A DNA stretch of 64,000 bases, from contig BPGK01000001.1 in NCBI GenBank assembly GCA_026002995.1, forward strand, positions 2,419,988 to 2,483,987, in the 5' to 3' direction. Within the stretch, counting starts at the first letter, position 1; each line of letters begins with the position of its first letter. The position numbers and the translations under genes were made by a program. Source of the DNA: Gaiellaceae bacterium (GTDB taxonomy: Bacteria; Actinomycetota; Thermoleophilia; Gaiellales; Gaiellaceae). Below, in pieces: positions 6,932-10,773 of this stretch. The notes below the pieces were generated by a model, which was not told the origin of the DNA, did no database searches, and worked only from the letters and a program-made list of their open reading frames with translations.

Positions 6932-7033
6932 CTAGAGGTGACCGTCCGACCAGGACAGGGGGGCGAGCACCTTCCCTGCCCAAGCCGCGACCAGCGCCAG
7001 GCTGACGAGAAGAACCATCAGGCGAGGCTTCAC
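6932..7033 (-). CDS. 33-residue hydrophobic peptide downstream of HTH-TPR regulator (candidate signalling peptide precursor)
   Basis: The GTG at 7033 follows the regulator's TAA by 16 nt and is preceded by a strong Shine-Dalgarno tract (AGAGGAGG, 5 nt spacing), so this very short frame is probably translated. The predicted peptide begins MKPR, has a hydrophobic core LMVLLVSLALVAAWAG, and ends KVLAPLSWSDGHL. That is the plan of a signal-sequence-bearing peptide pheromone precursor, with a positive N-terminus, a hydrophobic stretch and a polar tail. Regulators of the HTH-TPR (RRNPP) type in Firmicutes are paired with just such a downstream gene (Phr, NprX, PapR). In an actinobacterium this is only an inference. 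A simple small membrane protein is the alternative. Confidence 0.6.
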   Translation of the reverse strand: MKPRLMVLLVSLALVAAWAGKVLAPLSWSDGHL

Positions 7034-7049
7034 GGCGACCTCCTCTCTC

Positions 7050-8387
7050 TTAGAAGCGGATTTCAAGGAGCGCCTCTGCGGCGTTCCGGTAGAGACGCGC
7101 GGCCTCGCCCGCGTCACCGCGACGCGCAGCGAGGTCGCCCAGCGCGACCCAGGCCTCCGTTCGGTGGCTGAGCGACGCGAGCTGCTCGGCAGCCGCGTCG
7201 GCAGCCCGGAAGCACTCCTCCGCCTCGTCGAGGAGACCCTGCTCCATCAACGCCCGCCCCAGTACGAGCTGCGATGGAGAGACCTCGTCGAGGAAGTCCT
7301 CCCTACCCTCGAGCAGAGCGAGCGCCTTGCGCGCGCGCTCCTCTGCTTCCTTGTACTCGCCCCGGCGCAGGTGCACCTGGGCGAGACCTTCCAAGACCTG
7401 CGCGACGTCCGCCGGAGAGCCACTCTCGACGGCCCGCTCGAGCGAGGCCTCCAAGTGCTCGACGGCCTTCTCCTCGTCGCCGAGGAGCAGCGTGAGGCCA
7501 CCGAGGTTGAGCAGGAGCCGGCCGACGTTGCGCTCGTCGTTGAGCTCTTGGTAGAGCTCGCGCGCGCGGAGCGCATAGTTGCGCGAGAGCAGCCAGTGCC
7601 CCTCGCGCTGCGCGATGAGCGATGCCTGGAAGTACGTGTTCGCGATCGCCCGGCGATCGCCGACGGCCTGCGCGAGCTCCAGCGCGCGCTCCACGTCTTC
7701 CCGCGCCGCGACGTAGTCGCGCTGACGACGATGGCAGCGGGAGCGCCACCCCAGGATGTCCGCGCGCAGGAGGTCGCATGGGAGGCCGGAGCGCTCCGCG
7801 AGGGCGAGGGCCTCCCCGAGGAGCGCGAGCGCGGTGCCGATGCTCGAGAGCTTGTAGCGGGCGACGCCGAGTCGGAAGAGCACCTCCGCGCGCTCGAGGT
7901 CCGAGAACTGCTCCCCTTCGGCAAGCTCGCGCGCGTGCCGGAGGAGCTCGAGCGCCGCTCGGATGTCACCGAGCTGCTGGAGCGCCCACGACTCGCCGAG
8001 GAGCGCTCGGAGTCGGAGCTCGTCCGATCCCGCGGCCTCGACGGCCGCCCTCGCCTCGGCGAAGGCGTCGAGCGCGCCCTGGTAGTCGTGTGCCTCCGAG
8101 AGCGCCTCGGCGCGCGCGAGCTGCGCGTCCGCCCGCGTCTGCTCCTCGACCGAGACCCCGTGGGCGAGGAACGTCGCGTCGACCCCGAGCCGCTCGGCGA
8201 GCAACGCGATCGTCTCCTGCGTCGGGCGGGTCTTCCCGCGCTCGATCTGGCTGATGTACTCCTTCGAGAAGCGCCCGCCCGCGAGCTCGGTCTGCGTCAG
8301 CCCCGCGGAGAGACGAAGCGCGCGCAGGCGCTCGCCGAGCGAGGCGCCGGTCCGGACGGAGGCGGTCTGGGTGGCGGTCTCGGTCAT
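7050..8387 (-). CDS. XRE-family HTH regulator with TPR sensor region
   Basis: This 445-residue cytosolic regulator has an N-terminal XRE-type helix-turn-helix (about residues 15-75: LGERLRALRLSAGLTQTELA, FSKEYISQIERGKTRP) followed by roughly nine tetratricopeptide-like helical hairpins filling the rest (for example LGESWALQQLGDIRAALELL, GVARYKLSSIGTALALLGEA and LLNLGGLTLLLGDEEKAVEHL). HTH-TPR proteins switch DNA binding when a peptide or protein binds the TPR groove. The next gene is a tiny hydrophobic peptide 16 nt away, as in peptide quorum-sensing modules. The upstream region carries repeated ACTTGACT boxes that could be its own operators. The ligand is unknown. Confidence 0.88.
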   Translation of the reverse strand: MTETATQTASVRTGASLGERLRALRLSAGLTQTELAGGRFSKEYISQIERGKTRPTQETIALLAERLGVDATFLAHGVSVEEQTRADAQLARAEALSEAHDYQGALDAFAEARAAVEAAGSDELRLRALLGESWALQQLGDIRAALELLRHARELAEGEQFSDLERAEVLFRLGVARYKLSSIGTALALLGEALALAERSGLPCDLLRADILGWRSRCHRRQRDYVAAREDVERALELAQAVGDRRAIANTYFQASLIAQREGHWLLSRNYALRARELYQELNDERNVGRLLLNLGGLTLLLGDEEKAVEHLEASLERAVESGSPADVAQVLEGLAQVHLRRGEYKEAEERARKALALLEGREDFLDEVSPSQLVLGRALMEQGLLDEAEECFRAADAAAEQLASLSHRTEAWVALGDLAARRGDAGEAARLYRNAAEALLEIRF

Positions 8388-8424: not shown

Positions 8425-8460
8425 GCTCCCCCGGGAGGGGGATTCGCGCGGCGCGAGTGC
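8425..8460. repeat. Short intergenic element, also found at 30806
   Basis: This stretch begins GCTCCCCCGGGAGG, continues with a CGCGCG core and ends GAGTGC. The same order of blocks, with a few base differences and a shorter centre, occurs at 30806-30837. Both lie in leaders near XRE-type regulator genes. The CCC/GGG part can fold into a hairpin. Confidence 0.4.
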
Positions 8461-8529
8461 AGTCAAGCACAGGCTAGTCGAAATCACTTGACTAAGCTAC
8501 TTGACTTTTCTGGACCTGGCTCCTATAGT
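8461..8529 (+). promoter_or_regulatory. Promoter with tandem ACTTGACT boxes
   Basis: On the plus strand TTGACT (8501-8506) and TATAGT (8524-8529) are separated by 17 bp, an almost perfect vegetative promoter, predicting a start near 8536. ACTTGACT occurs at 8486-8493 and again at 8499-8506 (13-bp period), with an inverted AGTCAAGC at 8461-8468. The second box contains the -35 element, so a protein bound there would block this promoter. The boxes also lie upstream of the minus-strand HTH-TPR gene, suggesting shared or autogenous control by that regulator (inference). Confidence 0.65.
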
Positions 8530-8535
8530 CAGCCG

Positions 8536-8708
8536 CACACCGCACCGACCGGACGCCAGGTCGGATGCGAGGGCACCACCGCCGGATCCGCAGGCGAGTG
8601 CAGGGAGTCCGTGGCTGGGCCGCAGAGCCACGAACACCGACTCGCCTCCCCCGGGAAGGGGTCGCCTCGAACGGAGAACGCCCCCGGAGCCGCAGCCGGG
8701 GGCGTTCT
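8536..8708 (+). ncRNA. Candidate structured small RNA, about 173 nt
   Basis: The interval runs from the predicted start of the promoter at 8501-8529 to a perfect 13-bp terminator-like hairpin at 8675-8708. No convincing reading frame on the plus strand lies inside it. Several helices can be drawn: GACC/GGTC near 8546; a long arm GGCGAGT/ACTCGCC around 8593-8646 enclosing GTGGCT/AGCCAC; and CCCC/GGGG near 8650-8661. The flanking genes are both on the minus strand, so the RNA stands alone. It does not match 4.5S, tmRNA, RNase P or a cobalamin riboswitch by eye. The class is unknown. Confidence 0.5.
8675..8708. terminator. Bidirectional terminator-like hairpin
   Basis: Perfect 13-bp arms (AGAACGCCCCCGG / CCGGGGGCGTTCT) flank an 8-nt loop. 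It ends the candidate small RNA on the plus strand and lies 39 nt after the TetR stop on the minus strand. There is no clear U-tract on either side, as is common in GC-rich actinobacteria. Confidence 0.65.
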
Positions 8709-8746
8709 GCGTCCGGGGCCTGCAGGAGCGCGGCAGCCGGCCGGGC

Positions 8747-9346
8747 CTACGCTTCCCCCGTGAGCCACCGGTGCCGCTGCGCCCGGATCGCCTCGATGTC
8801 GTCCGTGTCCAGTGGGCCGCCGAGCCGGTCGGCGACCGCCTGCAGGAGCGCGCCTCCGATGAACACCCAGGCCTCCGCGTCCGCGTCCCGGTCAGGGTGA
8901 ACCACACCGGCCTCCTGGAGCTTCCGCAGCATGTCGGCGAAGAAGTCGTGCACCTCGCGCATGTGCCGGCGGACGTGGCGACGGATCTCCGGATCCTCGC
9001 CCGCCTCGGTGATCGCCTGCATCCACAGGCTCGGGAGGAGGACCTTCATCTCCCGCATCGAGGCAGGGCCGAGGCTCCGCCAGCCCTCGACCGGCCCCCG
9101 CTGCGCGAACGTCCGCTCGAGAAGCGCACGCTTGCGCTGCCACACGTCGTCGAGGCAGGCGAGGTAGAGGTCGCGCTTCGACCGAAAGTGTCGGTACAGG
9201 ATCGGCTCCGAGACACCCGCCTCGCGGGCGATCTCGGCGGTCGTCGCCCCCGCGTAGCTCCCGCTCGAGAAGACGCGGAGCGCCGCGTCGAGCAGCGCGC
9301 GGCGACGCTCGGCGGCCGGCAGACGGGTCGCGGTTCGAGGGATCAT
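8747..9346 (-). CDS. TetR-family transcriptional repressor
   Basis: This 199-residue regulator starts at ATG 9346, giving MIPRTATRLPAAERR and then the TetR helix-turn-helix FSSGSYAGATTAEIAREAGVSEPILYRHFRSKRDLY (about 28-65). The C-terminal helical ligand domain resembles other drug-efflux regulators. Its ATG overlaps the TGA of the upstream MFS pump (ATGA), so pump and repressor are made together. The likely target is the GTTAGT/ACTAAC palindrome in front of the pump. The inducer is unknown. Confidence 0.88.
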   Translation of the reverse strand: MIPRTATRLPAAERRRALLDAALRVFSSGSYAGATTAEIAREAGVSEPILYRHFRSKRDLYLACLDDVWQRKRALLERTFAQRGPVEGWRSLGPASMREMKVLLPSLWMQAITEAGEDPEIRRHVRRHMREVHDFFADMLRKLQEAGVVHPDRDADAEAWVFIGGALLQAVADRLGGPLDTDDIEAIRAQRHRWLTGEA

Positions 9347-10773
9347 GCCGCCGGCTCCGGAGCGCTCGCGCGCGCCGACCGCCCCGCCCCCTCGTGCGGG
9401 CGGACGAGGAGGTAGGCGACGATCGCGCCGACGAGGGCGATCCCGGCCGCGGTCTGAAGCGCGTGCTCGAACCCCCGCATGAAGGCCTCCGGCGCGCGGA
9501 CGCTGCCGGCCTCGCGGGCCATGATCGCGCCCATGACCGCGATTCCGAGCGAGCCGCCCACCTGTCGGAAGGCGTTCAGCACCGCCGCCCCCACCCCGGC
9601 CTTCTCGACCGGCACCGCACGCGTCGCAGCGGCCGTGCTCGGCGTCATCGTGAGAGCCATTCCCACGCCACCGAGGAGGAAGCCGGGCAGGAGCTCGGCG
9701 TACGTCGCGTCCACTCCGAGCCGCGACAGGTAGGCGAGATGGAGGGCGACGAGGAGCATCCCGCCGGTCATGAGCGAGCGCGAGCCGATTCGGTCGGCTG
9801 TCCTCCCGGCGAGCGGCGCGACGACGATGATGAGGATGGTCATGGGCAGGAACGCGGCGCCTGTCCTCACCGCCGAGTAGCCGAGGATCCCCTGCATGTA
9901 TAGGGACATGAAGAAGAACACCCCGAACATCGCGAGCGCGGCGAGGAGCGTGACCGTGTTCGCCCCCGTGTACGTCCGGTTCCGGAAGAGATCGAGTGGG
10001 AGCATCGGCGCCCGTTGGACGCGCTCGAGGACGAGGAAGGCGGAGAGCGCGAGGGCGGCGAGCGCGAAGGAGCCGAGGATCCGCGTCGACGTCCAGCCGT
10101 ACGTGTTCGCCTCGATGAGCCCGTACGTGAGAGCGAACAGCCCGAGCCCGGAGGTCGCAAGCCCCGGGAGGTCGAGGCGCTCGTGCGTCTCGTCGCGTGA
10201 CTCTGGGACGAGCAGGTAGCTCGCGAGCACGCCGGCGACGCCGACCGGGACGTTGACGAAGAAGATCCAGTGCCAGCTCAGGTGCTCGGTGAGCAGGCCC
10301 CCGACGAGGGGGCCGATCGCGAGCGCGAGCGCGGAGACGCCCGCCCACACACCGACCGCGACCCCGCGCCGGGCAGGCGGAAAGGTGGCGGCGATGATGG
10401 AGAGCGTGGCCGGGCTCATGAGGGCCGCCCCGAGCCCCTGTACCACTCGCGCGGCGATGAGCGCCTCGCTCGAGCCGGCGAGGCCGCAGAGGAGCGACGC
10501 GCCGGTGAAGACGAGGATCCCGAGCACGAAGATCCGGCGCCGGCCGTACGCGTCCGCGACCTTGCCGCCGATGAGCATGAAAGCCGCGAAGGCGAGCGCG
10601 TACCCCGTGACGACCCACTGCAGCTCGGGGAGCGTCGCCTCCAGGTCGCGTTGGATCGCCGGCAGCGCGACGTTCACGACCGTGTTGTCGAGCATGATCA
10701 TGAAGAGCCCGACGGAGACGGCAGCGAGCGTCAACCACATGCGGTCTCGCTCTGCCAAGATGCGACCAGTCAT
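9343..10773 (-). CDS. MFS drug/proton antiporter, DHA2 (14-TM, EmrB/QacA) family
   Basis: The 476-residue protein has about 14 hydrophobic spans. It begins with the DHA2 motif LDNTVVNVALPAIQRDL in TM1 and GGKVADAYGRRR as motif A between TM2 and TM3. Antiporter motif C-like GPLVGGLLTEHLSWHWIFFVN follows. Members export hydrophobic drugs, dyes or metabolites using the proton gradient. It is cotranscribed with its own TetR repressor and divergent from an acyl-CoA synthetase only 24 nt away, so both promoters share the operator region. Confidence 0.9.
   Translation of the reverse strand: MTGRILAERDRMWLTLAAVSVGLFMIMLDNTVVNVALPAIQRDLEATLPELQWVVTGYALAFAAFMLIGGKVADAYGRRRIFVLGILVFTGASLLCGLAGSSEALIAARVVQGLGAALMSPATLSIIAATFPPARRGVAVGVWAGVSALALAIGPLVGGLLTEHLSWHWIFFVNVPVGVAGVLASYLLVPESRDETHERLDLPGLATSGLGLFALTYGLIEANTYGWTSTRILGSFALAALALSAFLVLERVQRAPMLPLDLFRNRTYTGANTVTLLAALAMFGVFFFMSLYMQGILGYSAVRTGAAFLPMTILIIVVAPLAGRTADRIGSRSLMTGGMLLVALHLAYLSRLGVDATYAELLPGFLLGGVGMALTMTPSTAAATRAVPVEKAGVGAAVLNAFRQVGGSLGIAVMGAIMAREAGSVRAPEAFMRGFEHALQTAAGIALVGAIVAYLLVRPHEGAGRSARASAPEPAA

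Follow-up and report, generated by a model that had tools for sequence, protein, structure and literature searches.

A conserved HTH-TPR regulator, short peptide gene and structured RNA suggest a peptide-signalling switch in Gaiellales

Introduction

Quorum-sensing systems of the RRNPP type are recognised by a TPR receptor of 250–500 aa encoded beside a secreted precursor of 10–100 aa (PMC10075063, available in part). One large survey covered complete genomes of Firmicutes and of viruses, and another places the family in Firmicutes genera, as far as the accessible portions of these papers go (PMC10075063, PMC9765709). The same portion of the former gives small molecules as the typical signals of Actinomycetota, and assigns RRNPP systems to Firmicutes (Bacillota) together with their phages and plasmids (PMC10075063). 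Neither an RRNPP-type system in Actinomycetota nor an RNA of the kind reported here was found in the literature searched, outside of which most subscription papers remained.

The locus analysed here resembles the RRNPP (or RRNPPA) systems, among them Rap, Rgg, NprR, PlcR, PrgX, AimR and ComR, in that it encodes a putative receptor of typical size with HTH and TPR parts and a predicted fold near those of NprR and Rap. Next to it lies a short putative precursor gene with a ribosome-binding site, whose product has a basic start, a hydrophobic core and a short C-terminal motif. In contrast to the known systems, the host is an actinomycetote (Thermoleophilia, Gaiellales), the operator has three boxes, and a stand-alone RNA is the only evident target.

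The arbitrium system (AimR-AimP-AimX) likewise combines a TPR receptor and its peptide gene with one small transcript as main target. Its operator consists of long-spaced inverted half-sites, ATCACT with a 25-bp spacer in the case of AimR (excerpt of PMC6458997), whereas in the present locus about 16–17 bp separate the 7-mers of the inverted arm and box 1, and a third, direct box is added. The present RNA is divergent, has its own promoter and is non-coding and structured, whereas AimX of phage phi3T is a peptide (PMC10769878, of which a part was available). Moreover, the present system is spread over a bacterial family, and viral sequences that match its promoter pattern have no RNA match.

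The PrgX/prgQ/anti-Q system of pCF10 also unites an RRNPP receptor, two operators and an RNA regulator in one switch (PMC6540685, accessible in part). There, however, the RNA is the antisense of a conjugation operon, and it is the controlled transcript that encodes the inhibitor peptide. RNAs of the CsrB/RsmZ and 6C types carry a short recognition motif repeated in hairpin loops. So does the present RNA, but with GCCGCAG in place of GGA or a run of C, and it has no Rfam match.

We interpret the locus as a peptide quorum-sensing cassette whose output is a small RNA. This reading is probable, and within it binding, signalling, the direction of control and the RNA targets are inferred. Comparison between genomes establishes, at the level of sequence, that the regulator, the peptide gene, the boxes and the RNA exist and are conserved.

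Results

Three boxes lie between the regulator gene and the RNA

The window, that is the whole stretch of 64,000 nucleotides analysed, contains the features listed in Table 1. An earlier note on this DNA had described three related boxes between the gene of an HTH-TPR regulator and a small RNA, two of them direct copies with a 13-bp period, one including the -35 element of the RNA promoter, and the third inverted. Checked against the sequence, all three are where the note had placed them. ACTTGACT occurs on the + strand at 8486–8493 and again at 8499–8506 (starts 8486 and 8499, hence the 13-bp period), the second copy including the -35 element of a near-consensus promoter (TTGACT at 8501–8506, 17-bp spacer, TATAGT at 8524–8529). 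GCTTGACT, which has one mismatch as an 8-mer, lies on the - strand at 8461–8468 (8462–8468 for the 7-mer).

Table 1. Features of the locus and their positions in the window.
Feature	Position	Strand	Remarks
Putative signalling-peptide precursor VKPRLMVLLVSLALVAAWAGKVLAPLSWSDGHL, 33 aa, GTG start	6932–7033	-	C-terminal xDGx motif
GGAGG ribosome-binding site of peptide gene	7039–7043	-	Near-invariant in alignments A5, A6
HTH-TPR regulator, 445 aa, putative peptide receptor	7050–8387	-	HTH_3 + TPR
Inverted box	8462–8468	-	GCTTGAC on - (GTCAAGC on +)
Box 1 ACTTGAC	8486–8492	+	Inside conserved AAATCACTTGAC
Box 2 ACTTGAC	8499–8505	+	Overlaps -35 element
Sigma-70-type RNA promoter	8501–8529	+	TTGACT, 17 bp, TATAGT
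Structured small RNA with intrinsic terminator	8534–8711 (ends approximate)	+	~175 nt
P1 hairpin, loop GGACGCCA	8545–8564	+	Covariation
P2 tip TGGCT / AGCCA, loop GCCGCAG (8619–8625)	8612–8630	+	Helix 5
Terminator hairpin, loop repeats GCCGCAG (8689–8695)	8677–8706	+	Helix 6

Single 8-mer boxes are not rare (6 matches with at most one mismatch in the window, versus 14.8 expected). The genome-wide search for paired boxes proposed in the earlier note, however, found the exact pair ACTTGAC-N6-ACTTGAC only once in the 2.62-Mb genome, at this locus. When up to three mismatches were allowed, 29 genome sites were obtained, one exact and the next best with two mismatches, versus 22 for the reversed-pattern control. 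It is also the sole exact ACTTGAC pair at any spacer from 4 to 30, and the exact palindrome GTCAAG-N15–20-ACTTGAC is likewise the only one in the genome; both reversed-pattern controls gave 0. A chance origin of the boxes was rejected on the uniqueness of pair and palindrome, although single 8-mers are not enriched.

The boxes are conserved in the best-scoring regulator loci

Relatives of the regulator were collected in a first search of 61 genomes (match at E<=0.001 in 44) and a second of 53 further family genomes (match at E<=1e-40 in 48). The 30 best-scoring regulator loci of each search (L001–L030 and L085–L114) make up a set of 60 that includes the window and is not random; their upstream regions were aligned as A1, A2 and A9. 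Box 2 was ACTTGAC in all 60. Box 1 was exact in 44, read ACTTGAT in 7 and ACTTCAC in 5, took rarer forms in the others (GCTTCAC in 2, ACTTAAC in 1, ACTTCGC in 1), and retained at least five of its seven bases, i.e. had at most two mismatches, in every locus. Absence of the boxes from relatives that keep the regulator would have refuted the proposed link; it was looked for in these loci, and the link was not refuted.

The geometry is equally constant. The period of boxes 1 and 2 was 13 bp in 59 loci and 12 bp in one, the -35/-10 spacer 17 bp in 50, 16 in 8 and 18 in 2, and the -10 element TATAGT in 39, TACAGT in 10, TAGAGT in 8 and of another form in 3. For the 50 loci with period 13 and spacer 17, information was high in the block AAATCACTTGACCGAGCTACTTGAC and weaker in its flanks. 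The conserved unit is the 7-mer ACTTGAC within this block, the eighth base (T) after box 2 not being conserved. The inverted copy is looser than the direct boxes and is best written GTSAA; such an arm was present 22–25 bp upstream of box 1 in 55 of the 60 loci. When the best match within 18–29 bp upstream of box 1 was taken, its start lay 23 bp upstream in 39 loci and 24 bp upstream in 15. With arm and box 1 starts 23–24 bp apart in 54 of 60, the 25-bp spacer of arbitrium is not matched.

The pattern ACTTSAY-N6-ACTTGAC-N16–19-TATAGT was then scanned over 84,980 species and gave 56 matching stretches, 48 in this bacterial group and 8 unrelated; a hand calculation with equal base frequencies predicts about 7.5 chance matches. 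The unrelated ones were L142, L144, L157, L158, L169, L170 and L188, which had no RNA match, and L173. Twenty-one of the 56 were searched again with the RNA model described below, and 13 matched (L151 and L190 weakly, cut by contig ends) and 8 did not; the other 35 were taken as family genomes whose locus had been aligned or model-searched. None of the five matches on viral contigs had an RNA match, and a phage-borne module was rejected for this reason. All but one of the 48 related records bear the name Actinobacteria, Actinomycetes, Actinomycetota, Thermoleophilia or Gaiellaceae in their title. The exception is L163, labelled Acidobacteriota, a contig with the promoter and RNA of the window's family and probably a mislabelled assembly.

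The predicted regulator fold fits a peptide receptor

HTH_3 occupies residues 21–74 of the regulator and is followed by TPR repeats, including TPR_12. With an N-terminal HTH, a C-terminal TPR superhelix and 445 aa, the protein meets the RRNPP receptor definition (about 250–500 aa). The genome of the window has a single regulator match; 75 of 82 family genomes have one at E<=1e-45, partial genes and at least one paralog without boxes (G262) included.

An AlphaFold model (mean pLDDT 90.1, 28 sequences) aligned with apo NprR over 353 residues (Z 29.6, rmsd 5.0) and with Rap in complex with competence and sporulation factor over 348 residues (Z 29.2, rmsd 4.5). AimR and PlcR were not among the structural matches listed. 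TPR superhelices are common folds, and TPR domains of the eukaryotic LGN scored equally (up to Z 31.0). As LGN ranks with NprR and Rap, the fold alone does not prove RRNPP membership; what can be said of the model is that it fits the peptide-binding type. In a profile search of solved chains, ComR and PlcR (for the HTH) and RapJ and RapH (for the TPR part) gave matches that were weak and partial and ranked lower than many unrelated TPR and HTH chains; no clear match to a named RRNPP subfamily resulted.

A short peptide gene follows the regulator

Directly behind the stop codon of the regulator, the window has a strong ribosome-binding site and a short ORF, a gene overlooked previously, whose putative product ends in SWSDGHL. 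Downstream regions were compared in 60 best-scoring loci, 58 of them shared with the upstream set (L126 and L128 replace L028 and L030). A ribosome-binding site and a peptide ORF followed the regulator in 58, window included, so that the adjacent-precursor definition of RRNPP systems (10–100 aa with a ribosome-binding site) is met in these loci. The ORFs were 26–58 aa long as read; where several starts were possible, the ORF of highest hydrophobicity was chosen, and some lengths are affected by the end of the fetched stretch. In the two remaining loci, L015 and L094, there was no peptide ORF of at least 18 aa with an ATG, GTG or TTG start. Read by eye, L094 apparently has a precursor of some 15 residues, with the SWTDGH end kept and the hydrophobic part gone.

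All 58 precursors have K or R near the start and a hydrophobic stretch, on which the ORFs had been selected. [DEN]G was present within the last 14 residues in 51 and missing there in 7, some of which are cut by the end of the fetched stretch. The ends include SWSDGHL, SWPDGH, GFFDGH, GMSDGGGF, FWDGPG and MYDGAD, and tandem copies of the motif occur in L089, L091, L092 and L019, with FDGGS-type repeats in some relatives. Among ten genus members, differences by codon position numbered 305/138/487, and the G+C content of the peptide gene in the genus was 0.69/0.34/0.83. To judge from these coding signatures, the ORF behaves as would a real gene.

The earlier note had called the regulator peptide-responsive. 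This finds support in the conserved secreted-peptide-like gene behind it and in the predicted TPR superhelix that aligns with NprR and Rap; peptide binding, on the other hand, is not shown. The regulator might instead sense another ligand, such as a protein partner, a metabolite or an RNA, and the small ORF might encode a membrane micropeptide rather than a signal. We regard this as unlikely. The precursors do resemble short peptides of membrane or secreted type, TPR folds accommodate many ligands, and in the distant relatives described below regulator and boxes occur though no peptide gene is evident. A short C-terminal motif nevertheless recurs after the hydrophobic stretch, L094 seems by eye to retain it without that stretch, and its tandem copies are as in multi-pheromone precursors (PMC11343458, seen in part). 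The genome also encodes five SBP_bac_5 proteins, possible importers of the peptide, of a family so widespread that it was found in 11 of 14 control genomes.

The divergent transcript is a structured non-coding RNA

A covariance model was built from 23 loci (alignment A3). Model R1 matches the window at 8534–8707, where the segment folds better than its own shuffles (z -4.14) into three main hairpins: P1, a long P2 and the terminator. Rfam had no match in the window. At E<=5 only mir-H2 appeared, on both strands and far below the gathering score, and a known RNA family was ruled out, there being no match at that score.

Under strict filters, 69 of the 299 class genomes searched with the covariance model had the RNA. 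All 69 belong to the 82 genomes of one family, f1, inferred to be Gaiellaceae or a close family, with one match each; there was none in the 217 class genomes outside it. The RNA was divergent from the regulator in 67 of the 69, on the opposite strand and 88–301 bp away, the two exceptions being a contig edge (G012:C80) and G182. In its position, and in lacking a conserved ORF, it does not meet the arbitrium arrangement of an AimX-coding target behind aimP. For the 13 family genomes without a match under strict filters, the RNA was later found in G021, G028 and G239, and a weak partial match in G212 (E 0.14). G241 and G266 have partial regulators, the regulator match of G262 is a paralog without boxes, and G014, G022, G115, G169, G279 and G289 had neither RNA nor regulator at the thresholds used.

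Covariation was examined in 64 chosen loci, which include the 23 model loci and one RNA twice (63 distinct). Aligned to the model, 84.6% of cells pair, and changes on both sides of a pair occurred in 404 cells, versus 138.9 (sd 9.5) in shuffles and 65–98 with slid partners. This alignment leans towards the model; the MAFFT alignment A3, from which the structure was itself derived, agrees (107 such cells versus 36.7). In helix 5, the P2 tip, 89.8% of cells are paired and all seven pairs have changes on both sides; in helix 6, the terminator hairpin, 91.8% are paired. RACGCCA occurs inside the first 60 nt in 50 of the 64 rows and GCCGCAG occurs twice in 56, at 1.91 copies per RNA versus 0.07 in shuffles, mostly unpaired in single folds (104 of 122). 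The RNA is real: covariation is strong and no ORF is conserved. In the window the next gene, of the TetR type, is convergent, and the RNA is therefore a stand-alone transcript.

That the transcript acts by encoding a small protein must be weighed, since AimX of phi3T was initially taken for an sRNA before it proved to be a peptide (PMC10769878, the accessible part). Here it is very improbable, and a coding RNA was ruled out: 35 of the 64 RNAs lack any ATG, only 5 combine a closed ORF of at least 10 aa with a Shine-Dalgarno-like site, and the helices covary. The repeated GCCGCAG loop suggests a seed or a protein-titrating site. For predicting targets, seven bases are too short a motif to be informative in a genome rich in G+C.

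Boxes decay without the regulator and follow it at other spacings

In G182 (97% complete), the regulator was not found at E<=1e-40 or E<=1e-45. A recognisable remnant of the RNA (L134, G182:C5) there adjoins a gene for a thioredoxin-like lipoprotein (48% identity; PF13098), which in the window follows regulator and peptide genes; both of these therefore seem to have been deleted. Read by eye, the boxes have decayed to ACCCGAC and ACTTGCC and the -10 element is altered. This apparent natural deletion serves as a built-in control.

A sister family, f2, comprises five genomes whose regulators are 42–44% identical. All five have the boxes at a 23-bp period (box 1 of G040 being GCTTGAT), three have an inverted GTCAAGT 22–23 bp upstream of box 1, and each has its own peptide gene behind the regulator, ending in RGFHEW, RGFHQW or HGFHQWFGF. 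Downstream of the -10 element these loci (L071–L075) carry an RNA-like segment that differs from the RNA of f1, is well conserved and includes a hairpin around GCGGTGGGGACTGGAGCCCC or related sequences. The period is thus shifted by 10 bp, about one helical turn, while the distance from arm to box 1 is kept, which suggests that the geometry of the protein is conserved.

Three genomes outside the order (f7) have regulators 34–37% identical. Upstream of the 34%-identical regulator of G075 lies ACTTGAC-N7-ACTTGAC (14-bp period), and its genus mate G064, also at 34%, has ACTTGAC-N7-CCTTGAC at the same place; the paired boxes are at L195 963–983 (-) and in L193. No -10 element is evident for either pair. 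In G131, of another genus, there is no such pair, and seven single ACTTGAC-like sites were counted versus 2.4 expected. Inspection by eye of the sequence directly behind the regulator revealed no peptide-like ORF in G075, G064 or G131, and the class-wide model search gave no RNA match in f7. Box pairs without evident peptide or RNA strengthen the tie of regulator and box, which needs neither, and are perhaps the ancestral unit; they weaken the tie of box and peptide, the two being not always linked.

Within f1, ACTTSAY-N5–7-ACTTGAC was absent from the upstream regions of eight paralogs of the regulator (L076–L080, L129, L130, L199). Of seven whose downstream side was aligned, four have a short peptide-like ORF of their own (29–52 aa) and three have none. 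Differences in the HTH were tried as proof of which protein binds and failed: the recognition helices of box-less paralogs are similar to those of box-bearing receptors, and several are near-identical. Another paralog could therefore bind the boxes in those genomes. Separately, the box-less paralogs L120, L122 and L125 (in G015, G013 and G126) have their own secreted-peptide-like genes, ending FSDGRFQ, FADGR and FSDGRD, which we read as a second receptor-peptide system without an RNA.

These comparisons bear on whether the boxes are merely elements of the promoter or of a global regulator, unbound by the HTH-TPR protein, with the RNA simply adjacent. The -35 element lies inside box 2, which could be conserved partly as a promoter element, and box-bearing and box-less paralogs cannot be told apart by their recognition helices. 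Yet box 1 and the inverted arm are conserved though outside the promoter hexamers, a pair unique in the genome argues against a global factor, the boxes decay on loss of the regulator in G182, and in f2 and f7 box pairs accompany the regulator, at other spacings. Such elements are thus an improbable explanation.

Discussion

That the regulator controls the RNA directly, as the earlier note had suggested, is supported by the conservation of the boxes and the 67 of 69 divergent RNAs; its binding and the direction of control are inferred. In the cassette that we propose, the precursor would be exported and trimmed to a C-terminal oligopeptide (here around SWSDGHL), which an oligopeptide permease would re-import and the TPR groove of the receptor would bind. 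The receptor would occupy a three-site operator: an inverted pair of the GTSAA arm and box 1, with starts mostly 23–24 bp apart, and box 2, direct and 13 bp further on, over the -35 element of the RNA promoter. A dimer may sit on arm and box 1 and a further subunit or dimer on box 2. Binding of the peptide would alter the occupancy and so switch transcription of the dedicated, stand-alone non-coding RNA, and probably that of the receptor itself, autoregulation being likely because the inverted arm is on the regulator side. The RNA might then act in trans on mRNAs or an RNA-binding protein, by way of its two exposed GCCGCAG loops. Against this cassette stands the lack of binding, expression or peptide data behind it.

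We lean, though not strongly, towards repression by the apo-receptor, relieved by the peptide, in view of a near-consensus promoter whose -35 element is covered by box 2. Activation is still possible, if doubtful: the receptor of the same cassette would bind boxes 1 and 2 beside RNA polymerase, and the peptide would toggle it on or off. Activation is the mode of several RRNPP regulators, switched on by the peptide in PlcR or ComR and off in AimR. An activator site over or beside the -35 element is possible, and the decay of boxes after regulator loss in G182 fits activation equally. The near-consensus -35 and -10 elements with 17-bp spacing in 50 of 60 loci, and the position of box 2 on the -35 element in all 60, speak for repression instead.

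If the proposed cassette holds, the locus is a conserved actinomycetote counterpart of RRNPP systems in which receptor, precursor, operator and output are delimited. As the output is apparently one structured RNA, the circuit is compact and directly testable in vitro, and it adds a new family of RNAs, marked by its repeated loop motif, to a clade that has been little studied. The data suggest that these bacteria of soils and sediments have an undescribed cell-to-cell signalling switch with an RNA as its direct output. A wider claim can be made only with a confidence slightly above even: that this is chromosomal RRNPP-type peptide quorum sensing of Actinomycetota (Thermoleophilia, Gaiellales) with a single direct target, a non-coding RNA of a new class that carries two identical loop motifs, that population density is read out post-transcriptionally, and that receptor, peptide, operator spacing and RNA have co-diversified in at least two families.

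Some further elements surround the regulator. A palindrome, CTCCCCCGGGAGGGGGA, lies upstream of it at 8426–8442 of the window, perhaps as a further operator or as a hairpin in the regulator's leader; at its position ATCCCCCnAAAGGGGCAT is kept in many relatives outside the genus (alignments A2, A9). Many family members have an element TACTTCACcaaa.GCAA near the regulator start (alignments A2, A9), and all five f2 genomes an extra ACTTGAC or GCTTGAC there; these perhaps serve autoregulation. On the far side of the RNA, and convergent to it, are a TetR-type regulator and an MFS transporter (8747–10773). Finally, box 1 reads ATCACTTGAC, a six-base coincidence with the AimR box that is merely to be noted.
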